Part shown: piece by piece, positions 7,300-28,916 of the stretch
Numbering within the stretch: position 1 is the first letter of the stretch
Layout of the letters: each line of letters begins with the position of its first letter
Origin: Bacilli bacterium
Lineage (GTDB): Bacteria > Bacillota_I > Bacilli_A > RFN20 > CAG-826
Assembly (NCBI GenBank): GCA_024695405.1
Contig: JAILIF010000067.1
Span: 1 to 32,296, forward strand
DNA: 32,296 nucleotides
Direction of reading: 5' to 3'
Translations under genes and position numbers: made by a program
The notes under the pieces: model-generated
Seen by the model: only the letters and a program-made list of their open reading frames with translations
Told to the model about the DNA's origin: nothing
The model's database searches: none

Positions 7300-7554
7300 A
7301 TGGCAGTTGCTATAAAAGAAAAGCGCATTGAGTTCCGTGTACCTGATGAGGCAAAGAAAACAATCGAAGATGCAGCTAGACTTTCTAATATTTCTCTTTC
7401 GTCATATATTCTTTCAGTGGTTTTAAAACAAGCAAAGATTGATTTAGAACAAAATGAAATAATTGTATTAAACAATGCAGAAAGAGATTCATTAATGAAA
7501 GCACTAGAATGTCCTCCAAAACCAAACGAGGCTTTGAAGGATTTGTTTAGATGA
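7300..7554 (+). CDS. DUF1778-family (TacA-like, ribbon-helix-helix) antitoxin
   Basis: KEKRIEFRVPDEAKKTIEDAARLSNISLSSYILSVVLKQA followed by overlapping GNAT toxin; RBS aaaggagg. Confidence 0.9.
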   Translation: MAVAIKEKRIEFRVPDEAKKTIEDAARLSNISLSSYILSVVLKQAKIDLEQNEIIVLNNAERDSLMKALECPPKPNEALKDLFR

Positions 7555-8054
7555 TTTTAAAATCGATAAACGAAGTCAGTGAAAAAGCTTTAAACTCTTT
7601 CTTATGTGGAAATCCTGAACTAGATAGATTTCTAAGTAAATACGCCTTGCGTAATGATCAAAACGGATATGGCAAAACATTTGTTTTAGAAGATAATAAC
7701 GTACTTGTTGGTTTCTTTACTTTATGTAGTTCATCTATTAAGTTTGAAGAATTTCCTACTACAAATGGGCATTCACTTCCTAGATATCCAATTCCTTGTA
7801 TTAGAATTGCTAGATTAGCAGTCGAAGAAAGATTCCAAAGAAAAGGATATGGAAAGGAATTACTCAAACAAGCATTTTTGAAGATTATTGATGCATCTAC
7901 AACAGTTGGTGTAAGACTCATTGTGGTTGATGCAAAAGAAATATCTAAGAAATTTTATGAAAAGTATGGATTTACACATTTAAAGGTTGATAAGCCTTCT
8001 TACTACATATTACTGCAAACAGTAATAGAAGCATTTAAAGAAACTCATCAGTAA
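7551..8054 (+). CDS. GNAT acetyltransferase toxin (TacT-like)
   Basis: CGNPELDRFLSKYALRNDQNGYGKTFVLEDN and acetyl-CoA loop RLAVEERFQRKGYGKELL; ATGA overlap with antitoxin. Confidence 0.9.
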   Translation: MILKSINEVSEKALNSFLCGNPELDRFLSKYALRNDQNGYGKTFVLEDNNVLVGFFTLCSSSIKFEEFPTTNGHSLPRYPIPCIRIARLAVEERFQRKGYGKELLKQAFLKIIDASTTVGVRLIVVDAKEISKKFYEKYGFTHLKVDKPSYYILLQTVIEAFKETHQ

Positions 8055-8079
8055 AAAAGCGATATAATCGCTTTTTTTG
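8055..8079 (+). terminator. Rho-independent terminator of the TA pair
   Basis: aaaagcga-tataa-tcgctttttttg hairpin with U tract. Confidence 0.8.
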
Positions 8080-8166
8080 ATGCTTTGAAATACGTGTGGC
8101 ATATAATTTGCTATGTATTATAAGAATAAAATAATATAAAATTCATATGGTAATTGGAGAATATTT

Positions 8167-9048
8167 ATGGATATACGTACATTGTCTTATTTTGTAGTTA
8201 TTGCAGAGGAACTTAATATCACAAAAGCTGCAGAAAAACTTTGCATGTCTCAGCCTCCACTTAGTAGTCAAATTAAAAATCTCGAAGAAGAATTAGATAC
8301 TGTTTTATTTATTAGAGGAAAAAGACATCTTCAATTAACAGACGCAGGAAAATTGTTATATAGACACGCAAAAGAGATTTTATCTCTTGCTAATAAAACA
8401 TCTGAAGAAATTCGTTCAATGTCAAAAGGTATGCATGGAAAGATTTCTATTGGCTTAGTTGAAGGTAGTGCTCCTAACATTGCCGCAAACTGGATTGAAG
8501 CATTCTCTAATCAATATAAGAATGTCACTTTCCATGTAGTTGATGGTAATAGTGATGAATTAATCCAAAAGCTTAGAAGTGGGCTTATTAACTTAGCTGT
8601 TATTACTTCTCCTTGTGACAATACATTATTGAATAGCTTTAAAGTTGGACAAGAAATAATGACTGCGTTCATGTCTAAAGATAACCCATTAGCATCTATT
8701 CCAGGGAACACAATTGATTTAGCTATGTTAAAAAATAAGGAATTAATTGTGCCTTCTAGAGAATCAATCAACACAATGATTTATAAATGGTTTAAAGAAG
8801 TAAAACTAGAACCAAAGATTATATGCAAGATGGATAACTACTTAGATGTTGCCGCTCTTGCAGGTAAAAATGTTGGTATATCTATCTTCCCTAAAACTTC
8901 TTATATCTTAAATAAGCAAATTGTTGCAAAAGAAATAGTGAACCCAGAAAGATATGTTGAGTATCTTTTCGTGTGGCTTAAAAATAAACCTCTATCTTTA
9001 TTAGAAGAAGCTTTCATTGATCTTGTAAAAGAATCTGTTAAAAAATAG
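8167..9048 (+). CDS. LysR-family transcriptional regulator
   Basis: N-terminal wHTH MDIRTLSYFVVIAEELNITKAAEKLCMSQPPLSSQIKNLEEEL; substrate-binding domain follows. Confidence 0.95.
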   Translation: MDIRTLSYFVVIAEELNITKAAEKLCMSQPPLSSQIKNLEEELDTVLFIRGKRHLQLTDAGKLLYRHAKEILSLANKTSEEIRSMSKGMHGKISIGLVEGSAPNIAANWIEAFSNQYKNVTFHVVDGNSDELIQKLRSGLINLAVITSPCDNTLLNSFKVGQEIMTAFMSKDNPLASIPGNTIDLAMLKNKELIVPSRESINTMIYKWFKEVKLEPKIICKMDNYLDVAALAGKNVGISIFPKTSYILNKQIVAKEIVNPERYVEYLFVWLKNKPLSLLEEAFIDLVKESVKK

Positions 9049-9143
9049 AAAAAGTGATTATTTAAATAATCAAAAAAGATGAGACTTTTTCTCACTGCTT
9101 TTTGTTTACAAAAAGATTTGATTAAGAGAAAATTAAAACAATC

Positions 9144-10115
9144 ATGAAAAGTTATAAGACAAAAGAAGAATTATTAAATCATTTAAAATAAGATAGACAT
9201 GTCGAATTAGAAGAGTCCCTGCTTCCTATCTTTGATATATACCGTTATGGCCAGATTATTGATGCATATAAAGACATTTTAGCTTCTAATATTCTTAGCG
9301 TGCAAAAAATTCACATTTATGATCAAAACATAACTTTAAAAAGTTTTGTTGATGTAATGAATATCGACGAATATATCTCAATAAAATTGATAAGTTACAT
9401 TAGTCACTATGAAAAGATATTAAAGAAATATATATCTGATAAAGTATGCGAATGCATGGTTTCTAACGGATCTTTAGATTGCTGCGATTACAGTTTTTTC
9501 GAAACAATGAAGACCAATAGCATGGAAATAATTCTCGATTGCTTTGTTCTTTTAGACATGCAGTATAACAAAAATGGAAAACTAGAATTAAGAGATCAAA
9601 ATACTTATGAGAGTAGAAATAGAGTTATCGAGAAGATTATTGCGTTTGCAAATGGAAATCAAACGTCTGAATTGAATTATTATGTTAGTTATTATTATTC
9701 TACAAAACATTCAATTCCTTTTTATATTTTGATAGGTAGTTTAACTTTTACAAATTTAATCGTTTTATTTGGAATGTTTAATAGAGACTTACAAAACGAT
9801 TTTATTAAAAATATACATAAAAAGAATTTTATTGGTTATGATGATGTTGTTTCTGCCAAAGGGAAACACGATGTAATAAGAAGAATAAGAAATATAATTC
9901 ATCACCATGAACCATTGATTCCGTATTTATGTAAAAACGAGTATTTGGGTTTTGAGATTAAAAAAGCTGCTATTAAGTTATTAAAAAAAGTATATGAAGA
10001 TAACGAGTGTTTAAACAAACTAATAATTTCTTCATACGCAAATTTTGAAATAATCGAGTCATTAACCAGCAATTCATCAAAGAAATTAGTTGCATTTATC
10101 AATTTAATAAAATAA
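9144..10115 (+). pseudogene. Abi family (Abi_2/AbiD-AbiF-like, HEPN) protein interrupted by an in-frame TAA at codon 16
   Basis: ATG 9144 reads MKSYKTKEELLNHLK*(TAA 9189-9191)DRHVELEESLLPIFDIYRYGQIIDAYKDIL... in frame with ORF 9300-10115; Abi-like segment IPFYILIGSLTFTNLIVLFGMF and HEPN R-x4-H motif RNIIHHHE. Confidence 0.7.
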
Positions 10116-10198
10116 AAAGGTGTGCATCTGCGACACCCAGTCGAGGTTATAACCCCTCTTTAGATATCCTTACTTTATGTTAAGTGTAGATATTTTTC
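10116..10198 (+). ncRNA. Candidate structured RNA element, copy A, directly after the Abi gene
   Basis: Hairpin GGTGT-GC-atct-GC-g-ACACC (10119-10137) then cAGTCGAG, GAGG...CCTC stem, and ATATCCTTA...TAAG..GATAT stem ending in TTTTT. Confidence 0.65.
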
Positions 10199-10231
10199 AA
10201 TAATTATTATGGTTTAATGTAATTACAAAAT

Positions 10232-10312
10232 AAAAAGGTGTGCTACAGCTACACCTAGTCGAGATTTAGCTTCCCTTTACTTGTCCTTATTTTACATGGG
10301 TGCTTATGCACT
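10232..10312 (+). ncRNA. Candidate structured RNA element, copy B (118 bp downstream of copy A)
   Basis: Hairpin GGTGT-GC-taca-GC-t-ACACC (10237-10255) then tAGTCGAG; shared downstream motif CTTTA..TCCTTAyTTTA; GTGC-TTAT-GCAC terminal hairpin. Confidence 0.65.
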
Positions 10313-10340
10313 TTCAATTTTTTAATAAAGAAATTTTAAA

Positions 10341-10470
10341 AATAAAAGACCACATTAGTGATCTTGAACATTCATACTATATTGAGTTACTCATGCTCAT
10401 AGCTGGACCACCGCGGCTCGCTTATTGAGTAAAAACGAGGTTGGGGGCATTTCTGCCACTTTTGCATTTT
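10341..10470 (-). ncRNA. GC-rich structured island, possible minus-strand small RNA or mobile-element remnant with its own terminator
   Basis: Minus strand: GGCA-GAAA-TGCC (GNRA loop), TTACTCA...TGAGTAA 7-bp outer stem, terminal hairpin AAGATCAC-TAAT-GTGGTCTT followed by TTATTTTT. Confidence 0.35.
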
Positions 10471-10499
10471 TAGTTTACCATTTTTTTAGAAAATATTCA

Positions 10500-11213
10500 T
10501 TACTCTTTTATATCTTTAATGGTTTTGATTTTTTCTGCCGTATGGTTTTGATACGAATATTTGTCTACATGATAACCATTAATTGTTTCGTATCTGTTTG
10601 TAGAAAGATTTTTAATTGTGGTGCAGTCTGCAATTATTCCGAATAAATATTCTGGTTTACTGGCGCTGTAAAGAGATGCTAAAACTAAAGCGTTTCTAAA
10701 ATATTTAGCGTTCTTGCCTAGAAATTCTATATTAATGTGAACTCCTATTGTTTTAAGTAGGAAGTATAAAAACAAAGCAACCGATCTTGTATTTCCTTCT
10801 CTGAAGCAGTGGATTTGCCATAGTTCTTGGACAATAGAACAAACATTATTGATTTTTTCTTTATTGCTTAGTGATTGCCAAACAATGCCTTTAAATTTAT
10901 TTTCTAGATTATTCGTTTCTTTTTCAATGTAGTCAAAAGGTGTGTAATCTACTGAACATCCATTTAATATTGGTTCTTTTTTGTACATAGTAATTTTTCT
11001 AAATTCACCCGCCCAATCAAAAATAGACGAAAAAAGAAAACTATGAATTTTTTGTATATCAAAAACACTTTTAATGTTTAGGCCCTCTTTTCTTAGCCTA
11101 ATCATTCTTAAAGGAACAACATCTTCTTCGAGCTTATTTAGTGCTTCAGAATCTTTTATATCCTTTTTGTTAATGAGTACGTCTACATCTGGATATAAAT
11201 ATGGGTCTCTCAT
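10500..11213 (-). CDS. Fic-domain protein (probable AMPylase-type toxin)
   Basis: Fic motif variant HCFREGNTRSVALFL; FDWAGEFRKITMYKKE; ATGA overlap with upstream RelB/DinJ gene. Confidence 0.85.
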   Translation of the reverse strand: MRDPYLYPDVDVLINKKDIKDSEALNKLEEDVVPLRMIRLRKEGLNIKSVFDIQKIHSFLFSSIFDWAGEFRKITMYKKEPILNGCSVDYTPFDYIEKETNNLENKFKGIVWQSLSNKEKINNVCSIVQELWQIHCFREGNTRSVALFLYFLLKTIGVHINIEFLGKNAKYFRNALVLASLYSASKPEYLFGIIADCTTIKNLSTNRYETINGYHVDKYSYQNHTAEKIKTIKDIKE

Positions 11214-11527
11214 ACATTATGTAACCTCATAATAGCAAATTCTGCTGTTTCAAAATCGATAATCCCATCGTCATATAGTCTCATAATTTGTTTAGCTTTT
11301 TCACTAGGCTTTCCAGCATCAACAGAACTTACATTTTCTGCAAAAGCAACAAGATCTTCTTTTTCAGGTAAAACTAAATCAAAAGGCATCCCTTTTCTTA
11401 AAGAAACCTGATTTAAAAACATTGTTATTGCATAACTTGTTGTTATACCAAGTTTGCTGAATATGTAATCACATTCAGCTTTAGTTTCTGGAGATATTCT
11501 TGTGTGTACGATTTCTGTTTTTTGCAT
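11210..11527 (-). CDS. RelB/DinJ-family antitoxin (start MQKTE)
   Basis: MQKTEIVHTRISPETKAECDYIFSKLGITTSYAITMFLNQVSLRKGMPFDLVLP; RBS gaggaaaatat before ATG 11527. Confidence 0.85.
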   Translation of the reverse strand: MQKTEIVHTRISPETKAECDYIFSKLGITTSYAITMFLNQVSLRKGMPFDLVLPEKEDLVAFAENVSSVDAGKPSEKAKQIMRLYDDGIIDFETAEFAIMRLHNV

Positions 11528-11657
11528 ATATTTTCCTCGTTCATATTGTATCACAAAAGTTATACAAAAATATAATTTTTTGAGAAAATATCAAAATTAT
11601 TGTTAACAAAAATAAATTTAATTCACTCTTTTATCGTATCTATTGTTTTTTATATCG

Positions 11658-24254: not shown

Positions 24255-25145
24255 ATGCAAAATAAGTACATCTTAGAGATTAAAAATCTCTGTAAATATT
24301 TCCCTATAAATAAAAAGCTATATAAGAAGGCTGTTGATGGAGTAACGTTCAATATCGAAAAGGGTGAGATATTTGGCATCATTGGTGAATCTGGATGTGG
24401 GAAAACAACATTAGTTAGAACACTCAAAGGTTTATATCAAAAAAATGACGGCCAGATTATCTATGATGGTTCAGATATTGATTTATTGGACAAAAAAGAA
24501 ATATCAAACATCAATTTAAAAATGCAAATGGTATTCCAAGATCCTATATCATCATTAAACCCAAGAATGAACATTCTTTCCATTGTTACTGAAGGATTGG
24601 TGGTTAAAGGAATAAAAGATAAAAAATATTTAATCCAACAAGCAGAAAAGTATCTAGAAATAGTTGGGTTATCTAAAGAATACATATATCGATATCCTCA
24701 TGAGTTCTCTGGTGGCCAACGTCAAAGAATTGGTTTAGCAAGAGCCTTAATCATGGAGCCAGAACTGCTTATATTAGATGAACCAATATCTTCTTTAGAT
24801 GTTTCAATGCAAGCGCAAATATTAAACCTTCTTAAGAAGCTTAAAAAAGAGATGAATCTAACAATGATTTTTATATCTCATAACTTATTGATAGCGAGTC
24901 AATTTGCCGATCATATCGCAGTTATGTATGATGGCAAAATTGTTGAAATTGGAAGTAGTAAAGAAATATTTGAACACGCTGCTCATCAATATACGAGGAA
25001 TTTAATTAATTCGGTTTCGTATGCTGATCCAAATAAAGAAAGAAATAAAAAAGATTTAGATATAGTTCAAGAATTCAATACTAATGGTGAACTTGAATGT
25101 ATTGGTGAAGAACATTATGTAAGAAAGGAGAAATTAAATGTTTAA
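24255..25145 (+). CDS. Oligopeptide ABC transporter ATPase OppF
   Basis: GESGCGKTTLVRTLKGL, FSGGQRQRIGLARALI, LDEPISSLDVSMQAQ. Confidence 0.93.
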   Translation: MQNKYILEIKNLCKYFPINKKLYKKAVDGVTFNIEKGEIFGIIGESGCGKTTLVRTLKGLYQKNDGQIIYDGSDIDLLDKKEISNINLKMQMVFQDPISSLNPRMNILSIVTEGLVVKGIKDKKYLIQQAEKYLEIVGLSKEYIYRYPHEFSGGQRQRIGLARALIMEPELLILDEPISSLDVSMQAQILNLLKKLKKEMNLTMIFISHNLLIASQFADHIAVMYDGKIVEIGSSKEIFEHAAHQYTRNLINSVSYADPNKERNKKDLDIVQEFNTNGELECIGEEHYVRKEKLNV

Positions 25146-27024
25146 GAAGTTATCTACAATATTATTTATAGGTTTATTGGCTTCTTGTAGTGGTGCTGCA
25201 GTAGAAACACCAACTGAAGAAACTAAGGAAGAGAAAATAAACAAACTTTCAATAAACATAGAAAATGTTAAAACGCTCTTTTATAAAGGAGATTCCTTTT
25301 CATTAGATGGAATTGAAGTCTCTTTAATGGAATTTAAGAATTTCGAATGGGTGAAAGAAAAGGATATTTCGAATTATGTCTCTTCAATAAAAGAAGGTGA
25401 CACATTAAATAATGAAGGCGAAGTTACTGTAACTGTCTCATATCAAGACTATGTTCCTTTTGAATATACAATAGATGTTATTGATATAGATAAATACAAA
25501 ACAAATAAAGATTTTGATTTTGCTAAAAATACATATTTAGATAGTGAAGGTAATACTAAGCCTATTAACACAACTATCTTAGCTAATAACTGTGTTGATA
25601 TAGCTTATCTTGATCCTTTATCTAAGAATAATCATGTTTTAGTTGTTCCTTATTATTTCAGTGAAGATGAAGATATGGCCACTGAAGAAAATAGAGAGAT
25701 TATTAAGACTGTGTTTTTTGGCAGTGAAGAAGATATGAAAAAACACAATCAACCATATTCAGTTAAGTCATATTATGAAGCATCAAGTTTTGGAAAAACC
25801 ATTTTTGACGGAGATGTTCTTCCTTGGATTAAAGCAAGTGTAGGTAGTTCAGAAAATATGGTTAATGGTGGATATGCTGCTAGTGAAGATATCTACAATA
25901 GATACGTAAGTGAATATAACAAAGAGAATCACGGTATTCTTGGTAAAGACGCTAAAGAGTGGACTTACTATGATGGAAATAAAGATGGATGTATAGATTT
26001 AATTTGGTTTGTCTATTCCAAGGACATGCAACATGTAGGAACTGACCAATGGTGGGCATATACAGCACACGATGCAACAAAAATGTCGCCATCAATTAAT
26101 AGACCAGTACCTAAGACAATATGTTGGGGTTCATTTGGATTCTTATTTGGTAATTATGATCCACATACATTTGTTCATGAAACAGGTCATGCGTATGGTC
26201 TAGTAGACTATTATTGTTATAACGGCTCATGGTCACCTATGGGTGGCATAGCAATGATGGATAATAATTTTGGCGACCATGATTCATATTCTAAGTTTTC
26301 ATTAGGATGGAGTGTTCCAAGAGTGGTTGACGAAAGTGCAATTATTACATTGAAACCTTTTGCTACTAGTAATGAAAGCGTTCTTCTTCCTTCTCCTAAT
26401 TTCAACAACACATTCTTAGATGAATATTTACTTTTAGAATATGATGGTCCTTTTGGATTAAGCACTTCTGATTATATAAATGGATATTCTGGATTAATGG
26501 GTTATAACAAACCAGGATTGAGAATATTACATGTTGATTCTAGAGGAATTAAAGATAGCAATCATAAAGCTCCTTTAGTAGATAACTATCTAGAATCAAG
26601 TAATTTTGCATATGACAATTCTAAATTTGGTAGAAACTCAGGCAATAAACCTAGTGGTTGCCAAACTGATTATTTTGAAGCAATCAATAACCCAACAAAT
26701 TTAGATAGAAGCTATGCTTTATTAACTACTATACCTGCCACATATAACGTAGATAGAAACAATTTTTTAGATAACATCAAACTAGATAATTCTGCACTTT
26801 TTACTAAAGGAACTACATTTTCCTTTAATGACGGTTGGACAGAGTTTTTACCTAGTGCTTGTAATTTATGGAATAAAGCAAGAGTGCCTTTTAAAAACTC
26901 TAAAGGAGAGTATTTAGAAAGTACTATCGATAAAAATATGACAATTGATTACTCAATCAAAGTATTAGAGATGAGTAATGAAGAGATAGTTATAAAGATT
27001 GATAAGGAGGATAAGAATAGATGA
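25138..27024 (+). CDS. M6-like zinc metalloprotease lipoprotein (1)
   Basis: Lipobox LLASC; FVHETGHAYGLVDYYCYNG...MGGIAMMDNNFGDHDSYSKFSLGW (HExxHxxGxxD zincin motif). Confidence 0.85.
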   Translation: MFKKLSTILFIGLLASCSGAAVETPTEETKEEKINKLSINIENVKTLFYKGDSFSLDGIEVSLMEFKNFEWVKEKDISNYVSSIKEGDTLNNEGEVTVTVSYQDYVPFEYTIDVIDIDKYKTNKDFDFAKNTYLDSEGNTKPINTTILANNCVDIAYLDPLSKNNHVLVVPYYFSEDEDMATEENREIIKTVFFGSEEDMKKHNQPYSVKSYYEASSFGKTIFDGDVLPWIKASVGSSENMVNGGYAASEDIYNRYVSEYNKENHGILGKDAKEWTYYDGNKDGCIDLIWFVYSKDMQHVGTDQWWAYTAHDATKMSPSINRPVPKTICWGSFGFLFGNYDPHTFVHETGHAYGLVDYYCYNGSWSPMGGIAMMDNNFGDHDSYSKFSLGWSVPRVVDESAIITLKPFATSNESVLLPSPNFNNTFLDEYLLLEYDGPFGLSTSDYINGYSGLMGYNKPGLRILHVDSRGIKDSNHKAPLVDNYLESSNFAYDNSKFGRNSGNKPSGCQTDYFEAINNPTNLDRSYALLTTIPATYNVDRNNFLDNIKLDNSALFTKGTTFSFNDGWTEFLPSACNLWNKARVPFKNSKGEYLESTIDKNMTIDYSIKVLEMSNEEIVIKIDKEDKNR

Positions 27025-28916
27025 ACACAAAAAAACTTTTAGCGTGTTTTCTTGTTTCTATGTTTTCTCTTTCTGCTTGTAATGAGCCAGTAGAAGAAAA
27101 TAAAGAAAATGAAAGCGAAGAAAAAGTCACTCAATTAGAAAACATAGAAAATGTAAAAATCATTATTCAAACCGATAGGTATGAACTTGCTATTGGTGAA
27201 TACCATAAGTTAAGTCTAATTCCGGTTAACTTTGTTGGTGCAATAAGTGTTACTTCAAGTAATAGTGAAGTTATAGAAGTAAATCCTAAAAATAATGAAT
27301 TACATGCTTTAAAAGAGGGAACCGCAATATTAACTGCATCATATGTTAATGATTCTAGAGTTAGTAGCGCTATTGAATTAGAAGTTATTTCTGGAAAAAA
27401 GGGAAGTGACTATAACTACCATGAGTTTAATCAACAAATAAGTCACACTCATAGCCTTAATCCTAAAGGAAAGCAGCATGTTATAGTGCTACCTATATCT
27501 ATTAAAGATTATGAATGCAATGCAACTGCTGAAAACTTAAATAGACTAAAGAAAGCATTTAATGGTCCAAATGATTATTGGGAAAGTGTTGCAAGCTTTT
27601 ACAAAAAAAGTTCATTTAATCAATTAGATTTAGATTTTGTGTTTCCTGATGAATGGTATGAATGTCCTTATAATCCAGTTGAATTTCAAAGTCATTATAA
27701 AGCTGAGTATGTACTAGCTGATGACCGTGGCTCTTCTAAATTAGTTGAAGAAGCACTCAATTGGTTTAAAGAGAAATATGGTTTCTCTGCCGAAAAATAT
27801 GACAAAGATAAAGATGGATATGTCGATGGTATATGGGCTATATATAGTGCTCCTGCGATGGCGGAAGAAAAAGAAAAATATGAAGAACTATATCCAGGAA
27901 TTGATGTAGAAGGATGGTGGGCATTTTGCTGCGATTCTAGAGTCAACATTGGTAATACAGGCTTATTAAGTAATCCAGTAAGTAAAATGTATGGCTGGGC
28001 TAGTTATGACTTCATGAATAATGCAGGGGAAGGATTAACAGATGCTCATACTTATATTCATGAAACAGGCCATATGATAGGGGCTAAAGATTATTACTGT
28101 ACCTTATCAATACAAGGTATGGAATATAATTTTCCAACTCCATTAGGAGGTGTTGACATGATGGATAACAACATCGGTGATCATAACGCCATGACTAAGT
28201 ACTGTTATGGTTGGACTAAACCTATAGTGATTAATAAAGAAACAACAATAGATTTAAAACCATATGAAGAAACTGGTGATTTCTTATTAATCACTAATGA
28301 ACATCATAACAATACTGCATGGGATGAATACTTTATGGTTGAATATATAACTCCTAGTGGATTAAATGCGAATGATTATCTTAAGCCATATCCAAATAAC
28401 GGGTTACAAGGTTATTCGAAACCGGGTATAAGAATAACTCACGTAGATAATAGAGGAGTGTACGCTGATAGCAATAAAGGATTATGCTTCTCTACTGATG
28501 ATACGAATATATTCAATGATCCAATAAGCAATACACCTGTTACTTCTTATACGATGTTTGCTGATAATACAAATAGCAAATCTCCATTCTTTCAAATAAC
28601 ACTTATGCAAAAGAATATTGAGACTGCTAAATATAATGTACTTTCAGAATCAAGAAATTATCTAAAGAGTATTAGAAATAGAGAAGAGTCACCAAGAACT
28701 CAAATAGCGGATGATGCGCTTTTCTATGAAGGGGAAAGTTTCTCTTTAGAACTTAATTCGCCATATAGAGAATTGATGCCATCTAAGAGTCATCAATTAG
28801 ATAAATACTTCGATTCTAAAAGTAAGCTAGACGTATTTGATTACAAGATTAATGTTGTTTCGATAAATGAACAAAGCGCAAAGATAGAGATTAAAAAGAT
28901 AGATATATCTAGATAG
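27021..28916 (+). CDS. M6-like zinc metalloprotease lipoprotein (2), paralogue of upstream gene
   Basis: Lipobox SLSAC; Ig-like N-terminal region; YIHETGHMIGAKDYYC...LGGVDMMDNNIGDHNAMTKYCYGW. Confidence 0.85.
   Translation: MNTKKLLACFLVSMFSLSACNEPVEENKENESEEKVTQLENIENVKIIIQTDRYELAIGEYHKLSLIPVNFVGAISVTSSNSEVIEVNPKNNELHALKEGTAILTASYVNDSRVSSAIELEVISGKKGSDYNYHEFNQQISHTHSLNPKGKQHVIVLPISIKDYECNATAENLNRLKKAFNGPNDYWESVASFYKKSSFNQLDLDFVFPDEWYECPYNPVEFQSHYKAEYVLADDRGSSKLVEEALNWFKEKYGFSAEKYDKDKDGYVDGIWAIYSAPAMAEEKEKYEELYPGIDVEGWWAFCCDSRVNIGNTGLLSNPVSKMYGWASYDFMNNAGEGLTDAHTYIHETGHMIGAKDYYCTLSIQGMEYNFPTPLGGVDMMDNNIGDHNAMTKYCYGWTKPIVINKETTIDLKPYEETGDFLLITNEHHNNTAWDEYFMVEYITPSGLNANDYLKPYPNNGLQGYSKPGIRITHVDNRGVYADSNKGLCFSTDDTNIFNDPISNTPVTSYTMFADNTNSKSPFFQITLMQKNIETAKYNVLSESRNYLKSIRNREESPRTQIADDALFYEGESFSLELNSPYRELMPSKSHQLDKYFDSKSKLDVFDYKINVVSINEQSAKIEIKKIDISR

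Follow-up and report, generated by a model that had tools for sequence, protein, structure and literature searches.

Abi_2 gene and its genomic neighborhood

The window, i.e., the whole 32,296-nt stretch of DNA that was analyzed, carries an Abi_2 gene (AbiD/F-type HEPN RNase, a phage-defense toxin) at 9144..10115 on the plus strand, identified by a PF07751 match (E = 1e-12) and by PADLOC AbiD. Two tandem repeat units, A and B, directly follow it. The HEPN RNxxxH motif (RNIIHH, 9888..9905, +) is intact, and its residues R233, N234, and H238 were invariant in an alignment of six Abi_2 proteins. The reading frame is not intact, as a premature TAA occupies codon 16 (9189..9191, +). Alignment with the homologue L002 (31% identical) ran from the ATG of L002 through this codon, indicating an interruption in the window copy that is either genuine or a sequencing or assembly error. 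If it is no sequencing error, the premature stop suggests that the locus is decaying or that the toxin is silent.

The window protein represents a remote HHHEP subfamily, which PADLOC AbiD scored at 29 bits compared to about 300 bits for classical members. The subfamily was found at only four loci (the window, L002/L013 from horse gut, L003/L014, and L015). An AlphaFold2 model from four sequences was poor, with a mean pLDDT of 52; its top PDB match was 8VZ6, with a probability of 0.99 but an E value of 0.086 and a TM score of 0.36.

Together with a TacA-like/GNAT pair (7300-8054) and a RelB-Fic pair (10500-11554, minus strand), the Abi_2 gene surrounds lysR. In G016, the one same-genus genome in which the lysR neighborhood could be located, lysR is grouped with glnA and an M32-type peptidase gene, and TacAT, Abi, and RelB-Fic genes are absent from the group, indicating that the window locus is accessory. 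Judged by gene content, the region 7300-11554 appears to be an accumulation spot of toxin-antitoxin (TA) and defense genes. Elsewhere in the window, 25138-28916 encodes a tandem pair of lipoprotein-like paralogues carrying HETGHAYGLVDYY / HETGHMIGAKDYY motifs; the pair appear to be secreted metallopeptidases, and another lipoprotein-like protein follows them.

Tandem repeat units downstream of the abi gene

Units A (10109..10148, +) and B (10227..10266, +) are direct repeats placed 118 nt apart, with 34 of 40 positions identical (85%). Each contains a conserved core of an A-rich leader, a hairpin, and AGTCGAG, and the two direct copies within 10109-10325 share the consensus AAAATAAAAAGGTGTGC-NNNN-GC-N-ACACC-N-AGTCGAG. 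The elements begin 3 nt past the abi stop codon and extend to ~200 nt after it. The repeat search gave an ungapped score of 22.0, whereas 300 dinucleotide shuffles averaged 8.4 (SD 1.0) and reached at most 13.5. This score is far above the shuffle maximum, indicating that copies A and B are related by duplication.

Hairpin 1 (GGUGU-GC/GC-ACACC with a 1-nt 3′ bulge) was located by folding at 10119..10137 in A and 10237..10255 in B, both on the plus strand, with in-context pair probabilities of 0.63-0.99 in both copies. AGTCGAG follows one linker base after each hairpin 1, at 10139-10145 and 10257-10263. Between A and B, the 5+2-bp hairpin stem and AGUCGAG do not vary, and the differences fall in the loop (AUCU in A and UACA in B, three of four positions), the bulge (G/U), and the linker (C/U). 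The core block of hairpin plus AGUCGAG is identical at 27 of 33 positions. The remainder of the 118-nt unit has diverged, except for a second shared block, CTTTA..TCCTTAyTTTA, which the comparison of A and B placed at 10158..10177 (CTTTAGATATCCTTACTTTA) and 10275..10294 (CTTTACTTGTCCTTATTTTA) on the plus strand. Both units close with a hairpin and a U-rich tail, and these hairpins differ in sequence and register. That of A (about 10162..10195, +) has a short U tail (UUUC), and that of B (10298-10313), followed by TCAATTTTTT, is intrinsic-terminator-like (10298..10323, +). No U-run lies behind hairpin 1, indicating that hairpin 1 itself is no terminator. The preliminary description had reported an Abi/HEPN gene followed by two copies 118 bp apart, identical paired bases beside a differing loop, bulge, and linker, the second common block, and terminal hairpins with unlike sequences; the PF07751 and RNIIHH matches, the repeat score, the A/B comparison, and folding bore out each of these, with the gene interrupted at 9189-9191.

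The same description took the constant stems and variable loops as the mark of a selected RNA structure. The pattern stands, but its force is limited. All five differences would fall in unpaired positions by chance with P = 0.043 (18 of 32 positions are unpaired), and no compensatory change was found in any stem pair between A and B; therefore, the hairpin structure is plausible rather than proven. Short-window folding gave modest z-scores of −1.3 and −2.1. When whole units were folded, z was −3.3 for A and only −0.9 for B, which folded no better than shuffles. No adequate promoter site was found upstream of either A or B. A reading of the repeats as short ORFs was rejected, as no conserved frame was seen by eye, and the structure of a G+C-richer patch at 10366-10475 was no better than that of shuffles.

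Comparison with abiF RNA and other Abi_2 loci

The repeats had been suggested to be the "AbiF RNA" motif or a variant of it. The RF03085 covariance model (gathering cut-off, 37 bits) gave no match at the cut-off and none at E ≤ 10 in 10040-10420, and it had no match in the whole genome of the window. The same model detected phage phiC2 (37.6 bits) and L010 of the same bacterial family (44.7 bits), indicating that the search works. RF03085 consists of 6 bp, a 1-nt 5′ bulge, 3 bp, a loop of about 11 nt, and a 6-nt 3′ bulge, and is located upstream of the abiF gene, whereas the window hairpin has 5 bp, 2 bp, a 4-nt loop, and a 1-nt 3′ bulge, recurs with a 118-nt period, and lies downstream of abi. 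Thus, the missing model match, the other fold, and the other side of the gene ruled out RF03085. Searches with all Rfam families gave no match in the window, and the elements appear unlike any catalogued RNA. What they have in common with RF03085 and RCd22 is a bulged hairpin RNA adjoining an Abi_2/AbiF HEPN gene; RCd22, from the C. difficile prophage AbiF system (PMC12373285), likewise has two motif copies per locus. The element is real and uncatalogued, and plausibly akin to the AbiF-RNA kind.

Further copies were searched for with the repeat pattern and with a covariance model, R1. In its own genome, the pattern allowing up to three mismatches matched A and B only. Over 225 same-family genomes, all R1 matches except A and B had E values of at least 0.026, none above noise, and the phage and plasmid collections yielded no convincing copy. 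The closest homologue, L002, has nothing but a terminator-like hairpin after its stop. Conservation of the repeat sequence downstream of other Abi genes, which the preliminary description had looked to, was hence not seen in the own genome or the 225 genomes. The repeat is represented by a single genome, with two copies beside an interrupted toxin gene. Since no copy was found outside the locus in these genomes, there is no covariation and no independent association with abi.

We then considered RNAs beside other Abi_2 genes, using 28 Abi_2 matches from 26 of the 225 same-family genomes. By inspection, RF03085 or RF03085-like hairpins were observed upstream of Abi_2 at L046, L047, L048, L051, and L063. 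The hairpins at all of these except L047 showed 6 bp, 1 nt, 3 bp, a loop, and a NACCAN-type 3′ bulge; they fell below the Rfam cut-off or were missed entirely, indicating that the Rfam model appears too narrow. Downstream of the gene, L050, L052, L053/L054, L061, L063, L066/L067, and L072 have a promoter-like site and, behind it, one or two hairpins and a T-run. This small-RNA layout occurred at 9 of 25 Abi_2 genes compared to 4 of 56 other genes in the fetched loci (Fisher p = 0.002), with promoter and terminator thresholds of our choice that were fixed after some loci had already been inspected. When near-duplicates were collapsed, 7 of 22 Abi_2 genes showed the layout (p = 0.009). The window scored no match in this test because there is no good promoter between abi and the elements. 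These results are circumstantial evidence that a neighboring RNA, on either side, is common for Abi_2 genes in this bacterial family. These RNA-like neighbors are unrelated in sequence to the window elements. Separately, the genome of the window contains a second Abi_2 gene (L056, G000:C41), preceded by an attenuator-like element, GUCCAGAGGACGACGGAC...GUUCUACUCCCUGACUUUUUUU, that is shared with L058 and also lies upstream of the homologue in G066; the element had no Rfam match and is a candidate additional AbiF-type RNA.

A different element follows abi at L014 and L015, where 49 of 50 nt are conserved after the stop and third codon positions are 54% identical. This element (L014 3874-3927; L015 1183-1236) is ~50 nt long, with two hairpins (an A-run hairpin and CUUUUCAAACCUUAUCGGUUUAUGUUC) and two covarying stem pairs, and was also found at L107 (1664-1717 and 13063-13116), L074 (1491-1544), L080 (1501-1554), and L081 (1501-1554). 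In a pattern and model search, one genome had it twice, 11.4 kb apart, once behind a HigB-like/PD-Lambda-2-like pair and once behind a Pycsar cyclase/PycTM pair. It also lies past a DegV gene, close to a tyrosine recombinase (integrase), and with a ResIII-type helicase on one side and an AbiLi-like ATPase on the other; its neighbors also include Abi_2/ThsB-like genes. Because it follows unrelated defense genes as well, it is not abi-specific, and we dropped it as proof of an abi-linked RNA. By its neighbors, it appears to be a general defense-neighborhood element, perhaps serving defense islands as an attachment site or cassette end, or else a shared RNA. The model of this element gave no match at the window repeats. 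Equating it with the second block of copy A was rejected, as the alignment was weak (equaled in 1-6 of 1000 shuffles) and B failed to align.

Possible function of the repeats

Experiments have established AbiF-associated RNAs as antitoxins (PMC12373285; reviewed in PMC12737573). RCd22, with its two abiF motifs, neutralizes AbiF by direct binding, for which its stems are required (PMC12373285). AbiFr is an antitoxin, 8VZ6 is the structure of PbAbiF bound to its ncRNA (PMC12737573), and PbAbiF-AbiFr is a type III-like TA system and proposed Cas13 ancestor (PMC12737573, PMC12373285). By analogy with RCd22 and AbiFr, the best explanation of the window repeats would be a toxin-first, type III-like RNA antitoxin unlike RF03085, possibly decaying with its toxin; this reading is about as likely as not. 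The preliminary idea of an RNA antitoxin was thus right as to its class, given the AbiD/F-type HEPN gene and the established AbiF antitoxins, and its identification with RF03085 was not.

In such a system, A and B would be tandem structured RNA units of ~85 nt directly 3′ of the gene for an AbiD/F-type HEPN ribonuclease toxin, most likely co-transcribed with it. Each unit would comprise the A-rich leader, the bulged 5+2-bp hairpin, AGUCGAG, and the terminal hairpin, and the transcript would end after B at the intrinsic terminator. We infer that processing may take place in the AAAAA or U-rich linkers, and that the bulged hairpin and AGUCGAG would bind the toxin dimer and block its RNase site, neutralizing it, perhaps with one RNA unit per toxin subunit, on the model of PbAbiF-AbiFr and of RCd22 with its two motifs.

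Similar to the window, PbAbiF-AbiFr (8VZ6; Zilberzwige-Tal et al. 2025) involves an AbiD/F-family HEPN protein with RNxxxH. The window differs in its remote HHHEP subfamily, its interrupted ORF, and an RNA unlike RF03085. Type III antitoxins (ToxI, AntiQ, TenpI, and CptI) are likewise tandem RNA units beside a ribonuclease toxin, and two such repeats adjoin the Abi_2 gene here. However, the type III repeats are about 34-50 nt long, compared to the window period of 118 nt, and they lie 5′ of the toxin, with ToxN-family toxins as partners (PMC12373285); the window elements are 3′ of the gene, not 5′ of it with a terminator between.

The antitoxin reading gains from the adjacent Abi_2 gene with intact RNxxxH, from a non-chance repeat with stronger conservation of the 5′ hairpin and AGUCGAG than of the rest, from the RNA-like partners of other Abi_2 genes in the family, and from the accessory location of the locus. 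Against it count the lack of another sequence instance, and hence of covariation and abi association; the mere terminator-like hairpin of L002 and the L014/L015 element that is not abi-specific; the lack of a convincing promoter in front of either unit; the toxin-first order, unusual in type III systems, with an interrupted toxin ORF; and the fold of unit B.

Some of these observations suit other explanations. That the element starts 3 nt after the stop, that a hairpin and U-rich tail close each unit, and that L002 carries a plain terminator-like hairpin in the corresponding position would agree with a 3′UTR feature of the abi mRNA, namely duplicated stabilizing hairpins and tandem weak terminators with no antitoxin role. 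We consider this rather unlikely, as hairpin 1 lacks a U-run and AGUCGAG, which terminators do not need, is invariant, whereas the terminator parts diverged.

The repeats might instead act as DNA, as a site for recombination, or as the end of a cassette, in a mobile defense/TA region. The accessory TA cluster absent from the G016 glnA-lysR site fits this, and some weight comes from the structured, widely shared element that follows the L014/L015 abi and other defense genes. Yet the genome has only two copies, both on one side of a single gene and within 118 bp of each other, no integrase was found among the window ORFs, and the model of the L014/L015 element had no match here, making a DNA element improbable. 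There is also a slim chance that the tandem duplication is a neutral local event next to a decaying pseudogene, as the in-frame stop in abi, the retention of the element in no other genome, and the absence of covariation would allow. Nevertheless, conservation within the unit is uneven, with 27 of 33 positions identical in the hairpin/AGUCGAG core and clearly lower identity downstream, which is not expected of uniform neutral drift.

Returning to the antitoxin reading, a more specific proposal is that the locus represents an undescribed RNA antitoxin class for the remote Abi_2 (RNI[IV]HHHEP) subfamily, toxin-first, with two ~85-nt units carrying the GGUGU-GC hairpin and AGUCGAG and unrelated in sequence to RF03085. 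This joint proposal is tentative and somewhat doubtful. If true, AbiF-type toxins would repeatedly have gained RNA antidotes that differ from each other and lie on either side of the gene. Systems of this sort would at present go unnoticed, since RF03085 was above its cut-off in only 1 of 281 genomes searched in the order. AbiF-type HEPN toxins with RNA antitoxins are proposed Cas13 ancestors (PMC12165695, PMC12373285). If divergent AbiD/F proteins use non-homologous RNAs on either side, the RNA partner would be far more interchangeable than a single Rfam motif suggests, and this would bear on how a toxin-inhibiting RNA might become a guide RNA.
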